A stretch of DNA of 22,922 bases, taken from positions 1 through 22,922 of IMG/VR virus record IMGVR_UViG_3300032240_000714, one strand, 5' to 3'. The notes under the pieces were generated by a model. The model did no database searches and was not told the origin of the DNA. It was given only the letters and a program-made list of their open reading frames with translations. Shown here piece by piece: positions 10,553 through 17,772 of this stretch. Origin of the DNA: a virus. The position numbers were made by a program, and so were the translations under genes. The number at the start of each line of letters is the position of its first letter. Position 1 is the first letter of the stretch.

Positions 10553-10791
10553 CAGAAGAAATAAAAAAAGAAGATGAAGAACTTGAAATGATAATGGAGT
10601 ATACTGGATTCATGGAATACATTCAAGGCGCATATTTTGCTTTATCATCAGTTGATGATTTGGATGTTGCCATCATGAATAAAGAAGATGAAAAAAGAGT
10701 AAAAAGAATTAGAAGAAAATCAATAAAGATAATTGATGAATGCCTGAATCAAATGTACGATGAGTTATTTGAGGCAGATGAAGAAGATTAA
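10549..10791 (+). CDS. Small acidic hypothetical protein
   Basis: 80 aa, strongly acidic at both ends (EEIKKEDEELEMI and ELFEADEED) with a basic middle (KRVKRIRRKSIK). Mostly helical. Overlaps the phosphoesterase stop by four bases and is the last gene before the strong terminator at 10819. No family recognised; the charge pattern could suit a small binding partner or DNA-mimic type protein, but that is speculation. Confidence 0.6.
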   Translation: MTEEIKKEDEELEMIMEYTGFMEYIQGAYFALSSVDDLDVAIMNKEDEKRVKRIRRKSIKIIDECLNQMYDELFEADEED

Positions 10792-10818
10792 TTGTTCTCG
10801 TGTTTTGTTTTTAATGGT

Positions 10819-10848
10819 AAACCTGATGTATCTACATCGGGTTTTTTT
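10819..10848 (+). terminator. Strong intrinsic terminator ending the late block
   Basis: AAACCTGATGT (10819-10829) pairs with ACATCGGGTTT (10834-10844) over 11 positions, with one G-T pair, around the loop ATCT. The T-run covers 10842-10848. The inner arms are nearly identical to the hairpin at 8506-8527. Confidence 0.93.
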
Positions 10849-11000
10849 GTCACTAAAATTCAAATATTTGTGACCTTTATCGGTTTTTTTCCGATAATTA
10901 ATAAATATTTTTACAATTAATATTTGCCATAAAACTCAATACCACACTGCAATTGCTTATATTATGAAAAATTATTTTTGTTTTCTTTGAAAAATATTTG
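10849..11000. promoter_or_regulatory. Regulatory gap with repeated AATATTTG elements
   Basis: The 288-base gap between the late and early blocks contains no ORF I believe. It holds AATATTTG at 10863, 10919 and 10993, AATATTTT at 10904 and the related TATATTTG at 11033. The first copy sits in a perfect palindrome, CAAATATTTG (10861-10870). GTCAC occurs at 10849 and 11025, each upstream of an ATATTTGTG. A repressor or activator binding array is possible, but the high A+T makes such words likely by chance. Confidence 0.4.
10877..10897. repeat. Inverted repeat TTATCGG - T7 - CCGATAA
   Basis: TTATCGG (10877-10883) and CCGATAA (10891-10897) are perfect inverse complements separated by seven T. It could be an operator or a small hairpin; GC-containing arms stand out in an AT-rich gap. 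Confidence 0.55.
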
Positions 11001-11009
11001 AAAAAAAAG

Positions 11010-11047
11010 ATTGCAAAATCAAAATGTCACCATATATTTGTGTAACA
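11010..11047 (+). promoter_or_regulatory. Bacteroidota-type promoter for the early operon
   Basis: TATATTTG (11033-11040) matches the TAnnTTTG -7 element exactly. A TTG (11011-11013) lies 19 bases upstream, matching the -33 element spacing. Transcription would start near 11047, giving an A/C-rich leader of about 33 bases before the ATG at 11080. It is the best promoter I see in the window and reads into the early genes. Confidence 0.8.
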
Positions 11048-11079
11048 AAACAAAACAATAACACTTAAAACAAAACACA

Positions 11080-11241
11080 ATGAAAAGAGTAATTATCAAA
11101 ACAAAATCAAACTTCAGAAATTTAAACAACACAATTCAAAATGTTTTTGAAATTGTTGGAACAAGAGTTACTTGTATAATAGAAATAGATGGAATTAAAA
11201 GACAAGTTGATTTTCACATTAATGAATGCACATTTATTTAA
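11080..11241 (+). CDS. First early gene, 53-aa hypothetical protein
   Basis: Starts MKRVIIKTKSNFRNLN, basic at the N-terminus; the second half has an alternating beta pattern (TRVTCIIEIDGIKRQVDF). It is the first gene after the early promoter and is preceded by the 18-base leader that recurs at 12234, which supports the start. No homologue recognised. First genes of early operons often encode host-takeover or regulatory proteins, but nothing here shows that. Confidence 0.65.
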   Translation: MKRVIIKTKSNFRNLNNTIQNVFEIVGTRVTCIIEIDGIKRQVDFHINECTFI

Positions 11242-13521: not shown

Positions 13522-13863
13522 ATGAAAATTAACAAACTACAAAATGGAGACATGGTAATCGTATTTACCAAAAATGAAATTGAGCAAATCAATGCTGAAA
13601 TAAAAATTGACCATACTGAACGTTTTAAATGTTTACATGAAAAATCAAGAAAATTTGTTGAGTCATTATACAATTATTATGGTACAAAAGAATTCAAATT
13701 GAATGACAAAAAGGCATTAGAATTTAGACAGAAGTTTTTTATAACAGATGCAAGTCAATTAATGAGACAATTAAAAGAAAGAAATATTGTTGATTTGCAA
13801 TATAAAAATGGAGAGAATGTACATAGAAAAAGAATTTCATCAATCAATTTCAAATCATTATAA
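13522..13863 (+). CDS. Hypothetical early protein
   Basis: 113 aa. Leading beta segment (KINKLQNGDMVIVFTKNEIEQI), then basic helices (CLHEKSRKFVESLYNYY; RQKFFITDASQLMRQLKER) and a small C-terminal hairpin with VHRKRISS. The second half looks like a compact helix-turn-helix with a wing, so a DNA-binding role is possible. Preceded by the short TAACACAATG leader. Its TAA overlaps the next ATG by one base (TAATG). Confidence 0.55.
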   Translation: MKINKLQNGDMVIVFTKNEIEQINAEIKIDHTERFKCLHEKSRKFVESLYNYYGTKEFKLNDKKALEFRQKFFITDASQLMRQLKERNIVDLQYKNGENVHRKRISSINFKSL

Positions 13864-14282
13864 TGAACTGCGAACCATGTATAAATGAATTTATACCACA
13901 AACAAAACGACTGACAAAAGATGAAATACTGGAAGCAATCTGCATGAAATATGGAATAGAAATCAGGCAAATGAAAGGAAAACGCAGAGATTATAATATA
14001 GTTGAAGCAAGACATTTACTTTGCTATGTTCTAAATTCAGACAATTATTTAAGAATGTACCTGCGCGAAATAGGAGAATTAATCAACCGACATCATTCAA
14101 CAATTATTCATTCTATTGAGTATGTAAAAAGAACACTGGAGGTTGATGCAGCATATCGCAGAAAGGTTGCAGATTTATACATGCATCTTTATGATACAAC
14201 AGAATATCTTCCGAGTTTCGTTTTTAATTTTGTGGAAAAACAAAACAAAATAAAATCAATCTCTATTCAATTTATTGATTAA
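13863..14282 (+). CDS. Stand-alone DnaA domain-IV-like DNA-binding protein
   Basis: 139 aa. Residues 19-92 match the C-terminal (domain IV) DNA-binding part of DnaA: KDEILEAICMKYGIEI, KGKRRDYNIVEARHLLCYVL, LREIGELINR and the signature HHSTIIHSIEYV (77-88), equivalent to the DHSTVIHAI of bacterial DnaA. The AAA+ ATPase and domain I/II are absent and no Walker motif is present. Such proteins bind DnaA-box-like DNA and may mark the phage origin or compete with host DnaA; both are inference. The C-terminal 45 residues are extra. Its stop lies three bases before the structured RNA at 14285-14378. Confidence 0.78.
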   Translation: MNCEPCINEFIPQTKRLTKDEILEAICMKYGIEIRQMKGKRRDYNIVEARHLLCYVLNSDNYLRMYLREIGELINRHHSTIIHSIEYVKRTLEVDAAYRRKVADLYMHLYDTTEYLPSFVFNFVEKQNKIKSISIQFID

Positions 14283-14284
14283 AT

Positions 14285-14329
14285 TTGAATAGCGAACTCT
14301 GAATATATTGCAGCTATTCAGAGATTCAA
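14285..14329 (+). ncRNA. Structured intergenic RNA hairpin with kissing-loop partner
   Basis: Inner stem CTCTGAATA (14297-14305) with TATTCAGAG (14315-14323), nine perfect pairs; outer stem TTGAAT (14285-14290) with ATTCAA (14324-14329) across a six-base bulge. Loop bases 14307-14313 (ATTGCAG) are the exact complement of the loop of the next hairpin (CTGCAAT, 14356-14362). A competing hairpin TGAATAGC (14286-14293) with GCTATTCA (14313-14320) uses part of the same right arm. This suggests a switchable leader or attenuator rather than a simple stem. Confidence 0.6.
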
Positions 14330-14341
14330 TCCTCAACCTTT

Positions 14342-14378
14342 AAAAGGTCATAATGCTGCAATCATTGTGACCTTTTTT
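14342..14378 (+). terminator. Intrinsic terminator whose loop matches the upstream hairpin loop
   Basis: AAAAGGTCA (14342-14350) pairs with TGACCTTTT (14368-14376); five further pairs (14351-14355 with 14363-14367, one G-T) close a 7-base loop. The T-run ends at 14378, eight bases before the next ATG. Loop-loop pairing with 14307-14313 could alter its folding and therefore termination. Confidence 0.85.
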
Positions 14379-14385
14379 ATTTTAC

Positions 14386-15132
14386 ATGAAAAAAGATACA
14401 TTCTATTTCTCACACGATTTTAATGCTCATAATGACGTTAAAATTCTTTTTCTTAGGCAGCAATTAGGAATGGAAGGATATGGCATCTATTGGTTTCTAA
14501 TTGAATCTCTTGCTGATGCAGGTGGTATCATGCCAATGAAAATCATTCCAGTTCTTGCAATGCAAATGCATACAAGTGAAGTTAAGGTTCAGGCAGTTAT
14601 TAATAATTTTGAACTTTTCATCATTGAAGATGAATTCTTTTTCTCAAATAGATTGAATGAACATTTAAATAAACGAAAAGAATTAAGTGTAAAGAATTCA
14701 GAGAAAGGTAGATTGAGTGCAGAAAAAAGAAATTCAACAGCAGTTCAACCGCAGTTGAACATTAGTTCAACAAAGGAAAGTAAAAGAAAGGAAAGTAAAG
14801 GAAAGGAAATTAAATTAAATGAAAGTATTGAATTGCCATTCAATAACATTGATTTTATTAATAAGTGGAATGAATGGAAAGAATATAAAAAAACACAACA
14901 CAAATTCACTTTTAAGTCAAATGCAACTGAAAAAATATCTTTAAATCAATTAGAAAATCTATCAAATAAAAATTCAGAAATTGCGATAAAAATAATTAAT
15001 CAAAGTATTGCAAATGGATGGAAAGGATTTTTTGAAATAAAAAATGTAACAAATGATAAACCTGCAAACGAAAAAAGATTTGATGCCTACATTGAATTCG
15101 CTAACAGATATAAGAAACCATCTGCTGACTAA
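14386..15132 (+). CDS. DUF4373-type replication initiator-like protein
   Basis: 248 aa. Residues 1-95 (FYFSHDFNAHNDVKILFLR, GYGIYWFLIESLADAGG) form the winged-helix domain known as DUF4373, or Lin1244/Lin1753-type N-terminal domain, found in phage primosomal proteins. A lysine-rich linker (about 125-150) comes from purine-only DNA with two GGAAAGTAAA copies at 14775 and 14790. The C-terminal part (about 160-235) has KWNEWKEYKKTQHKFTFKS and IANGWKGFF, a DnaD-like helical tail usual for the family. It likely binds the origin or helps recruit the host helicase. Transcription must pass the terminator eight bases upstream. Confidence 0.75.
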   Translation: MKKDTFYFSHDFNAHNDVKILFLRQQLGMEGYGIYWFLIESLADAGGIMPMKIIPVLAMQMHTSEVKVQAVINNFELFIIEDEFFFSNRLNEHLNKRKELSVKNSEKGRLSAEKRNSTAVQPQLNISSTKESKRKESKGKEIKLNESIELPFNNIDFINKWNEWKEYKKTQHKFTFKSNATEKISLNQLENLSNKNSEIAIKIINQSIANGWKGFFEIKNVTNDKPANEKRFDAYIEFANRYKKPSAD

Positions 15133-16646: not shown

Positions 16647-16920
16647 AAAAACAGACGCTAACCAAAAGGATATAATGGACAAACTGAGATTGATTCCACA
16701 TCTATCAGTTTTCTCAACGCATACAATAGGTAAAGGATTCCCAGATATTATAATCGGATACAAAGGAAAAAACTACATGATTGAAATCAAAGATGGTAAA
16801 AAATGGAAATCACAACAGAAACTAACTGCTGATGAACTGGTGTTTCACATGAAATGGAAAGGACAAATATGCACTTGTAATTCATTTGAGCAGGTGATTG
16901 AATTACTCAATGAATCCTAA
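16639..16920 (+). CDS. VRR-NUC-like PD-(D/E)XK nuclease
   Basis: 93 aa from ATG 16639 (MIRKTDANQKDIMDKL); an upstream in-frame ATG at 16606 lies inside the previous gene. Catalytic pattern: GKGFPD36 (the PD of the motif), YMIE49-I-K51 (E-x-K) and a following KWKSQQK around Q59-Q60. The size and order match the compact VRR-NUC fold used in phage Holliday-junction or structure-specific nucleases. It probably resolves branched DNA before packaging. It is the last plus-strand gene before the minus-strand gene and their 3' ends overlap by 18 bases with no terminator between. Confidence 0.78.
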   Translation: MIRKTDANQKDIMDKLRLIPHLSVFSTHTIGKGFPDIIIGYKGKNYMIEIKDGKKWKSQQKLTADELVFHMKWKGQICTCNSFEQVIELLNES

Positions 16921-17772
16921 GAAATAACCTCCGAATTTTTTATTTAATAGATTTTTTAACTTTTGTTCATCTTTAAGAATATCACGAGCATATTTTGGAA
17001 CTGCATATCTATTCCATTCTGATTCATTTAATTTTCTGAAGTACCTATCATACATAAATCCAATGACTGCACCTGAACCAAATTCATTGTAGCAATAGAT
17101 TACAATTGCGTCTGTGTATGGTTTCTTTTGAATAATAGTATCACGCTTTACAAAATAACGTTTTGCTGAATCAAATTTTTGAATGTTTGGTACTATGTGT
17201 AGAATCTTATTTCGTAAAATCAATTCATCTTCAGTTAGCAATGTATAAGGTTTTACAACAACTGGAACATATAAAGGAATCTGAACAAGGTCACCAAAAT
17301 AAATGCTTGATGAATCTTTATTCTCGTAAACATTTAAGATAACTGGTGCAATGCGATTGTCATAAATTGGAAATGGTGCATCTGAATTTACAATCTGATT
17401 TTCAAGTTCACGCTGATAGAATCTGTTTTCATCAACATTGTTATAATAATTTTTGTAAGTGATATCTTTATACTTTGGATTCTCAGACATAACTTTCAAA
17501 GTTCTACGAAGTACAAAAAACATTCTTCTTGCATCTTCAAGTTTATAAAATATATCTTTCCTTTCATCAGTTGTCACCAGATCAGTTGAACTAACTAATA
17601 TATAAGATGAATTCTTATTATAGAATTCAACAACTACAATAGCATTATTATAAATAACCAATGAATCTTGTTCAGTTGGACAATCACATTTTGCACCATA
17701 AATATCTTTGCATTGACTAAATACAAATTGATTAGTCAATAATAGAATCAATGTTAATATCTGTCTCATCAT
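16903..17772 (-). CDS. Exported protein of unknown function, only minus-strand gene
   Basis: 289 aa. The first 20 residues (MMRQILTLILLLTNQFVFSQ) form a Sec signal peptide with the SQ ending common in Bacteroidota. The mature part begins CKDIYGAKCDCPTEQDS, with three cysteines (21, 29, 31); Cys21 follows Gln, not a lipobox. Further on are YYNNVDENRFYQRELENQI, IPLYVPVVVKPYTLLTEDELILRNKIL and a C-terminal KLKNLLNKKFGGYF. I recall similar exported proteins in other Bacteroidota phages but know no function. It is transcribed against the whole window from a short divergent gap, which suggests independent control such as a moron (superinfection exclusion, envelope change) or a separately timed lysis or virion factor. 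Confidence 0.75.
   Translation of the reverse strand: MMRQILTLILLLTNQFVFSQCKDIYGAKCDCPTEQDSLVIYNNAIVVVEFYNKNSSYILVSSTDLVTTDERKDIFYKLEDARRMFFVLRRTLKVMSENPKYKDITYKNYYNNVDENRFYQRELENQIVNSDAPFPIYDNRIAPVILNVYENKDSSSIYFGDLVQIPLYVPVVVKPYTLLTEDELILRNKILHIVPNIQKFDSAKRYFVKRDTIIQKKPYTDAIVIYCYNEFGSGAVIGFMYDRYFRKLNESEWNRYAVPKYARDILKDEQKLKNLLNKKFGGYFLGFIE

Follow-up and report, generated by a model that had tools for sequence, protein, structure and literature searches.

The window analysed here (the whole stretch of 22,922 nucleotides, positions 1 to 22,922 of the IMG/VR virus record IMGVR_UViG_3300032240_000714) carries, between a gene for a protein with the DnaA C-terminal DNA-binding domain (DnaA_C) and a gene for a Lin1244-type replication initiator, a short region in which a Bacteroidota-type promoter box is followed by two hairpins with complementary loops (Table 1). 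An earlier note on this DNA had described the hairpins and their setting between these two genes, and both are confirmed: the hairpins lie where they had been placed, and the exact 7-nt loop match can be extended to 8 nt (14307-14314 with 14355-14362) if the closing G-C pair of hairpin 2 opens. Judged from the -7 box, transcription would begin at hairpin 1 or shortly before it. The same note had proposed a third, competing stem (14286-14293 with 14313-14320), which is indeed perfect in the window but is not conserved: it contains a mismatch in L022, a near-identical relative, and the other relatives lack it. In addition, its 5′ strand overlaps the -7 box, and the 6-bp outer stem proposed for hairpin 1 likewise begins inside this box.

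Table 1. Features of the leader region and its flanking genes, in window coordinates
Feature	Position	Strand	Remarks
Upstream gene, DnaA_C protein	13863..14282	+	
Bacteroidota-type -7 box, TAAATTTG	14280..14287	+	overlaps the upstream gene's stop codon
Hairpin 1	14297..14323	+	9 bp; loop 14306-14314
Hairpin 1 arms, CTCTGAATA / TATTCAGAG	14297-14305 / 14315-14323		
Loop 1 kissing segment, ATTGCAG	14307..14313	+	extendable to 14314; exact complement of 14356-14362
Linker between hairpins 1 and 2	14324..14341	+	unpaired; without conserved competing helix
Hairpin 2, terminator-type stem	14342..14376	+	7-nt loop
Hairpin 2 arms	14342-14355 / 14363-14376		14 positions, one G-U pair
Loop 2 kissing segment, CTGCAAT	14356..14362	+	
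Intrinsic terminator T-run	14373..14378	+	separated from the start codon by 7 nt
Downstream gene, Lin1244_N replication initiator (phrog_2562)	14386..15132	+	

Judged on the window alone, the two-hairpin element is suggestive. Its fold has a z-score of -4.2, and none of 200 shuffled sequences was equally stable; however, one of 100 shuffled windows also gave the full combination of stems, T-run and matched loops, so that relatives were needed, and it is conservation among these, as seen in their sequences, that settles the reality of the element.

Other features of the window are recorded for completeness. Inside the initiator gene, positions 14772-14826 hold three 15-bp A-rich direct repeats coding for KESKRKESKGKEIK, and related initiators repeat a KGKEI motif; these repeats may serve as iterons of an origin inside the gene, an arrangement known from lambda O. 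A gap of ~435 nt between ORFs of at least 60 amino acids (10791-11226) contains an ordinary terminator (near 10820-10848) and a -7 box (11033-11040); a short ORF may begin at 11080. One long minus-strand ORF of 289 amino acids, with no Pfam match, stands amid plus-strand genes at 16903-17772.

Among homologues of the Lin1244-type initiator in IMG/VR, the same layout occurs with other loop sequences, which are always matched (GTAGTAGC/GCTACTAC, ATAGCAGC/GCTGCTAT, GTACCAG/CTGGTAC and GTAGAAGC/GCTTCTAC). A profile search added 80 loci to these homologues, and loop-blind searches found the layout to recur in dozens of IMG/VR phages. Many phages carry the element; they probably infect Bacteroidota. 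An exact DNA pattern derived from the window alone retrieved one true relative, L022, and three other hits without the element. No named phage was found to carry the element: the DNA of the window region and that of a leader of the second type described below went unmatched among them, and Pan5 and one faecal contig encode related proteins but lack it. The R2 search of host genomes covered ~300 from Chitinophagaceae, 300 from the order and 395 from the phylum, and its only matches were two phage contigs in one Chitinophagaceae MAG; R1 hits in host genomes (31-41 bits) were without convincing matched loops. Against Rfam 15, the window stayed below the gathering score for every family and 12 relatives gave nothing at the gathering score except tRNAs, the hits below threshold being due to chance. 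The open-access literature yielded no description of the element, which, limited to such papers, is weak evidence of novelty. On these comparisons the element is a real, conserved and apparently undescribed phage leader RNA.

The leaders fall into two architectures. Type A, to which the window belongs, has long stems and a short linker. In type B, hairpin 1 has 5-6 bp and an exact 7-nt loop, the linker is longer than in type A and contains AACTTATT, and the second part consists of an outer stem (GCCC/GGGC and variants) with an inner hairpin that also bears a 7-nt loop. Conserved unpaired stretches are AACTTATT and a CTGA-like one in type B, and are few in type A. In both architectures the loop-to-loop distance is ~46 nt, with 45-51 nt in nearly all members, and in the aligned sets of both types each loop has U at position 2 and A at position 6 (NUNNNAN). 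L007 (4750-5000) and L078 (upstream of 3001) may show a third architecture in front of the same initiator family: there a long hairpin precedes the gene, and its loop side is complementary to a 5′ segment of ~9-11 nt.

The pairing of the two loops is real and under selection. Over two alignments (14 type A and 17 type B sequences), all 213 loop–loop cells are Watson–Crick, many of them through double changes. In type A the stems are 91.5% and 94% paired and the loop–loop helix 100%, with double changes in four of its seven pairs; in type B the helix is again 100% paired and five of seven pairs show double changes. Shuffles gave 9.5 double-change pairs in type A as against the 19 observed, and in type B the double-change cells number 29 versus 8.3. 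Compensatory changes also occur in 7 of 11 pairs of hairpin 1 (14 relatives) and in 8 of 12 modelled pairs of hairpin 2; RNAalifold recovers both hairpins unprompted, and shifting the partner by one to three columns abolishes the covariation signal. The earlier note had held that independently varying loops in related phages would speak against the pairing, and the aligned relatives show no such variation. Across the cells, G-U occurs 44 times and A-C 3 times, the loop helix itself containing no G-U, and this bias indicates selection on the sense RNA.

Because the alignment members had partly been selected for matched loops, three loop-blind checks were added, namely covariance models without loop pairs, a DNA pattern of linker and T-run only, and a protein-based count of upstream regions. 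The covariance models found L081, L083, L086, L127 and L069, with matched loops in all. Matched loops were present in 25 of 26 distinct right-geometry hits of the DNA pattern, two hits of which have 6-nt loops. Matched hairpin loops 45-51 nt apart occur in 27 of 64 distinct initiator upstream regions (one of these, L075, being less clear), where ~0.2 would be expected from the rate of the same detector on shuffled regions (43/15800). A chance terminator is thereby contradicted as an account of the element.

Promoter, hairpin 1, hairpin 2, T-run and ATG always follow one another in this order; the start codon lies directly behind hairpin 2 in all members, and in type B next to nothing separates the T-run from the ATG. 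All 35 members checked, some of which had been chosen with a -7 box filter, have a -7 box immediately upstream (consensus TAnnTTTG in Bacteroidota; PMC7366714). Most members have an uninterrupted T6 right after the G+C-rich stem base, the T-run being weak or interrupted in some (L081, L086, L073, L075). The genes downstream encode Lin1244, DUF1376-like, HTH_36/DnaD-like or other replication initiators, or HNH/NUMOD4 endonucleases, and some leaders precede a small ORF that itself precedes the initiator. The leader therefore tracks the gene start and not the gene family, occurring before at least five initiator types as well as HNH/NUMOD4 genes, and the upstream gene is not constant either (L001 and L002 carry different ones). 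In L010 and L016, which have related initiators but not the RNA, a short leader comes immediately after the same -7 box; the RNA therefore occupies the 5′ leader.

Two contigs carry two leaders each. In L108, loop GTTGCAG precedes the initiator and GTGAGAT an HNH gene; in G346, GTAGGAT precedes the initiator and GTGAGAT an HNH gene situated between the terminase and portal genes (both identified by eye from translations). The pair GTGAGAT/ATCTCAC is also shared by the HNH/NUMOD4 leaders of two phages (L108:4598-4712 and L211:7430-7534), as if leader and endonuclease were moving together. L022:1745-1849 and window positions 14280-14384 show 97% homology, which stops precisely where the leader RNA ends on its 3′ side; L022 continues with a 76-aa ORF and a different initiator. 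Initiator modules seem to have been swapped at the leader. Proteins of ~62-76 aa stand between leader and initiator in L022 (1849-2079), L027 (8542 on), L031 and L063 (2809 on), that of L022 having no PHROG match.

The structure of the leader is well supported by these comparisons, and its function is inferred. The reading we favour, with a probability of about 0.5, is that of a cis-acting leader (attenuator) RNA in which hairpin 1 clamps a terminator before the gene. Transcription would start just before hairpin 1, whose loop would capture that of hairpin 2 as the latter emerges from the moving polymerase; the loop–loop helix would then clamp hairpin 2, an intrinsic terminator that stops a few bases short of the start codon. 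The majority of transcripts would end as an RNA of ~85-95 nt, and the gene would be expressed only from the read-through fraction, which would hold the replication initiator or endonuclease, potentially costly products, at a low level or delay them. The sequence features of an attenuator leader are present: a promoter upstream of the terminator, a stable stem followed by a T-run and a gene start downstream. A cis leader is suggested by the constant order and the close start codon, attenuation by the conserved T-run, and pairing within one molecule by the tight loop-to-loop distance across two differently built architectures. Promoter box, hairpins, loop–loop helix, T-run, start-codon spacing and selection on the sense RNA can be read from the sequences; termination itself, and its strengthening by the loop–loop helix, are what we infer from them, clamping of the terminator by hairpin 1 being the simplest role for this helix. 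Relief of termination might come from a phage antiterminator, from modification of the polymerase or from nothing at all. Termination may not be universal, in view of the interrupted T-run in L081, L086 and L073. A switch between terminated and read-through states, as the earlier note had imagined, finds no basis in the third stem, and no conserved alternative fold was found, the competing helix between the linker and the 5′ arm being no better than in shuffles (82/500); nothing therefore shows how the leader could switch.

The constant adjacency of hairpin 2 and start codon would also suit an element of translation or mRNA stability, in which the knotted leader guards the 5′ end or fixes a shape upstream of the start codon and the T-rich stretch is a ribosome-binding leader and not a terminator; the four members without a strong T-run point the same way. 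This is unlikely, if worth serious attention, since most members keep the uninterrupted T6 after the G+C-rich stem base and the related initiators without the RNA have no comparable T-rich leader. A minor share of the probability, of similar size, goes to a self-recognising RNA acting in trans: terminated leaders would accumulate with genome copies and pair with nascent leaders of the same phage, so that initiator expression drops as copy number rises and the loop sequence serves as a self code. Since the two complementary loops are present on every molecule, one copy can pair with another; the loops differ among relatives and even within one contig (L108, G346), although such distinct loops may be drift, and their tendency to NUNNNAN, often with U-N-R, recalls the YUNR of fast-pairing antisense loops (PMC4485353). 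By a rough estimate, a straight kissing rod measures ~81-84 Å in type A members with 12-13-nt linkers, whose linker reach is ~78-84 Å; some linkers thus look short for a straight intramolecular kiss, so that the RNA would have to bend somewhat or form a dimer. However, the tight loop-to-loop spacing favours pairing in cis, the same loop pair is often common to several distinct phages, and the window holds no second site for the 8-nt loops. In its boldest form, with a similarly minor probability, this reading would make the two loops of each leader in the family a private key by which terminated leaders know further copies of their own kind, giving sense-strand feedback on the expression of initiator or homing endonuclease for each phage or gene copy.

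The location upstream of a replication initiator and the kissing-type loops recall the sense-strand targets of antisense copy-control RNAs in theta plasmids, and the earlier note had likewise thought of plasmid-type kissing control. Such control requires an antisense transcript and is unsupported, since antisense -7 boxes are at background in the sequences (3 found versus 4.2 expected); the G-U bias moreover places selection on the sense RNA, and self-matching loops are unnecessary for antisense control, which makes this account very improbable. Scarcely any weight is given to a DNA-level element (origin hairpins or a recombination junction) or to an ordinary terminator with a chance loop match. 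The end of the L022 homology at the RNA 3′ end, with replacement of the downstream genes, would fit such an account, but the loop covariation already contradicts it, as do the G-U bias of the covariation, the matched loops in relatives found without use of the loops and the copies before HNH genes. Action at the origin, also suggested in the earlier note, is not indicated, the same leader being found before endonuclease genes.

An apparently undescribed and widespread structured RNA is thus added to probable Bacteroidota phages, a group poorly studied for RNA control. It keeps its place when an unrelated initiator replaces the one behind it, and also travels before HNH endonucleases. The natural series of at least 15 matched loop pairs makes the effect of the loop–loop helix on the terminator, or RNA self-recognition, directly measurable.

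Among known systems, attenuator leaders with intrinsic terminators (riboswitch-type leaders and plasmid rep leaders such as those of pT181 and pIP501) share the succession of promoter, structured leader, terminator and gene and, in the plasmid cases, the control of an initiator. The phage leader differs from them in having neither a conserved antiterminator helix nor an antisense promoter, and in its loop–loop helix, which links hairpin 1 to the loop of the terminator. Riboswitches with loop–loop contacts, such as the purine riboswitch, are likewise cis leaders, but in the phage leader, whose type B has the conserved unpaired stretches given above, no conserved ligand-binding core was evident and the contact consists of seven Watson–Crick pairs of free sequence. 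The put RNA of phage HK022, a leader of ~70 nt with two stem-loops near the early promoter, suppresses termination far downstream by binding the polymerase (PMC9378689). The two stem-loops near a promoter recur here, whereas the present leader has its own T-run, adjoins a start codon and bears complementary loops that covary. Kissing-loop antisense systems (ColE1 RNA I/II, R1 CopA/CopT, pMV158; partly PMC4485353) have in common with it the short loops, the U-turn-like U at position 2 and loop-set specificity. In those systems, however, opposite strands supply the two RNA partners, whereas in the phage leader both loops lie on one sense RNA. In the packaging RNA of phi29, also from a phage, two loops complement each other and vary in concert, but their pairing is intermolecular and serves packaging, whereas the leader described here precedes replication and endonuclease genes.
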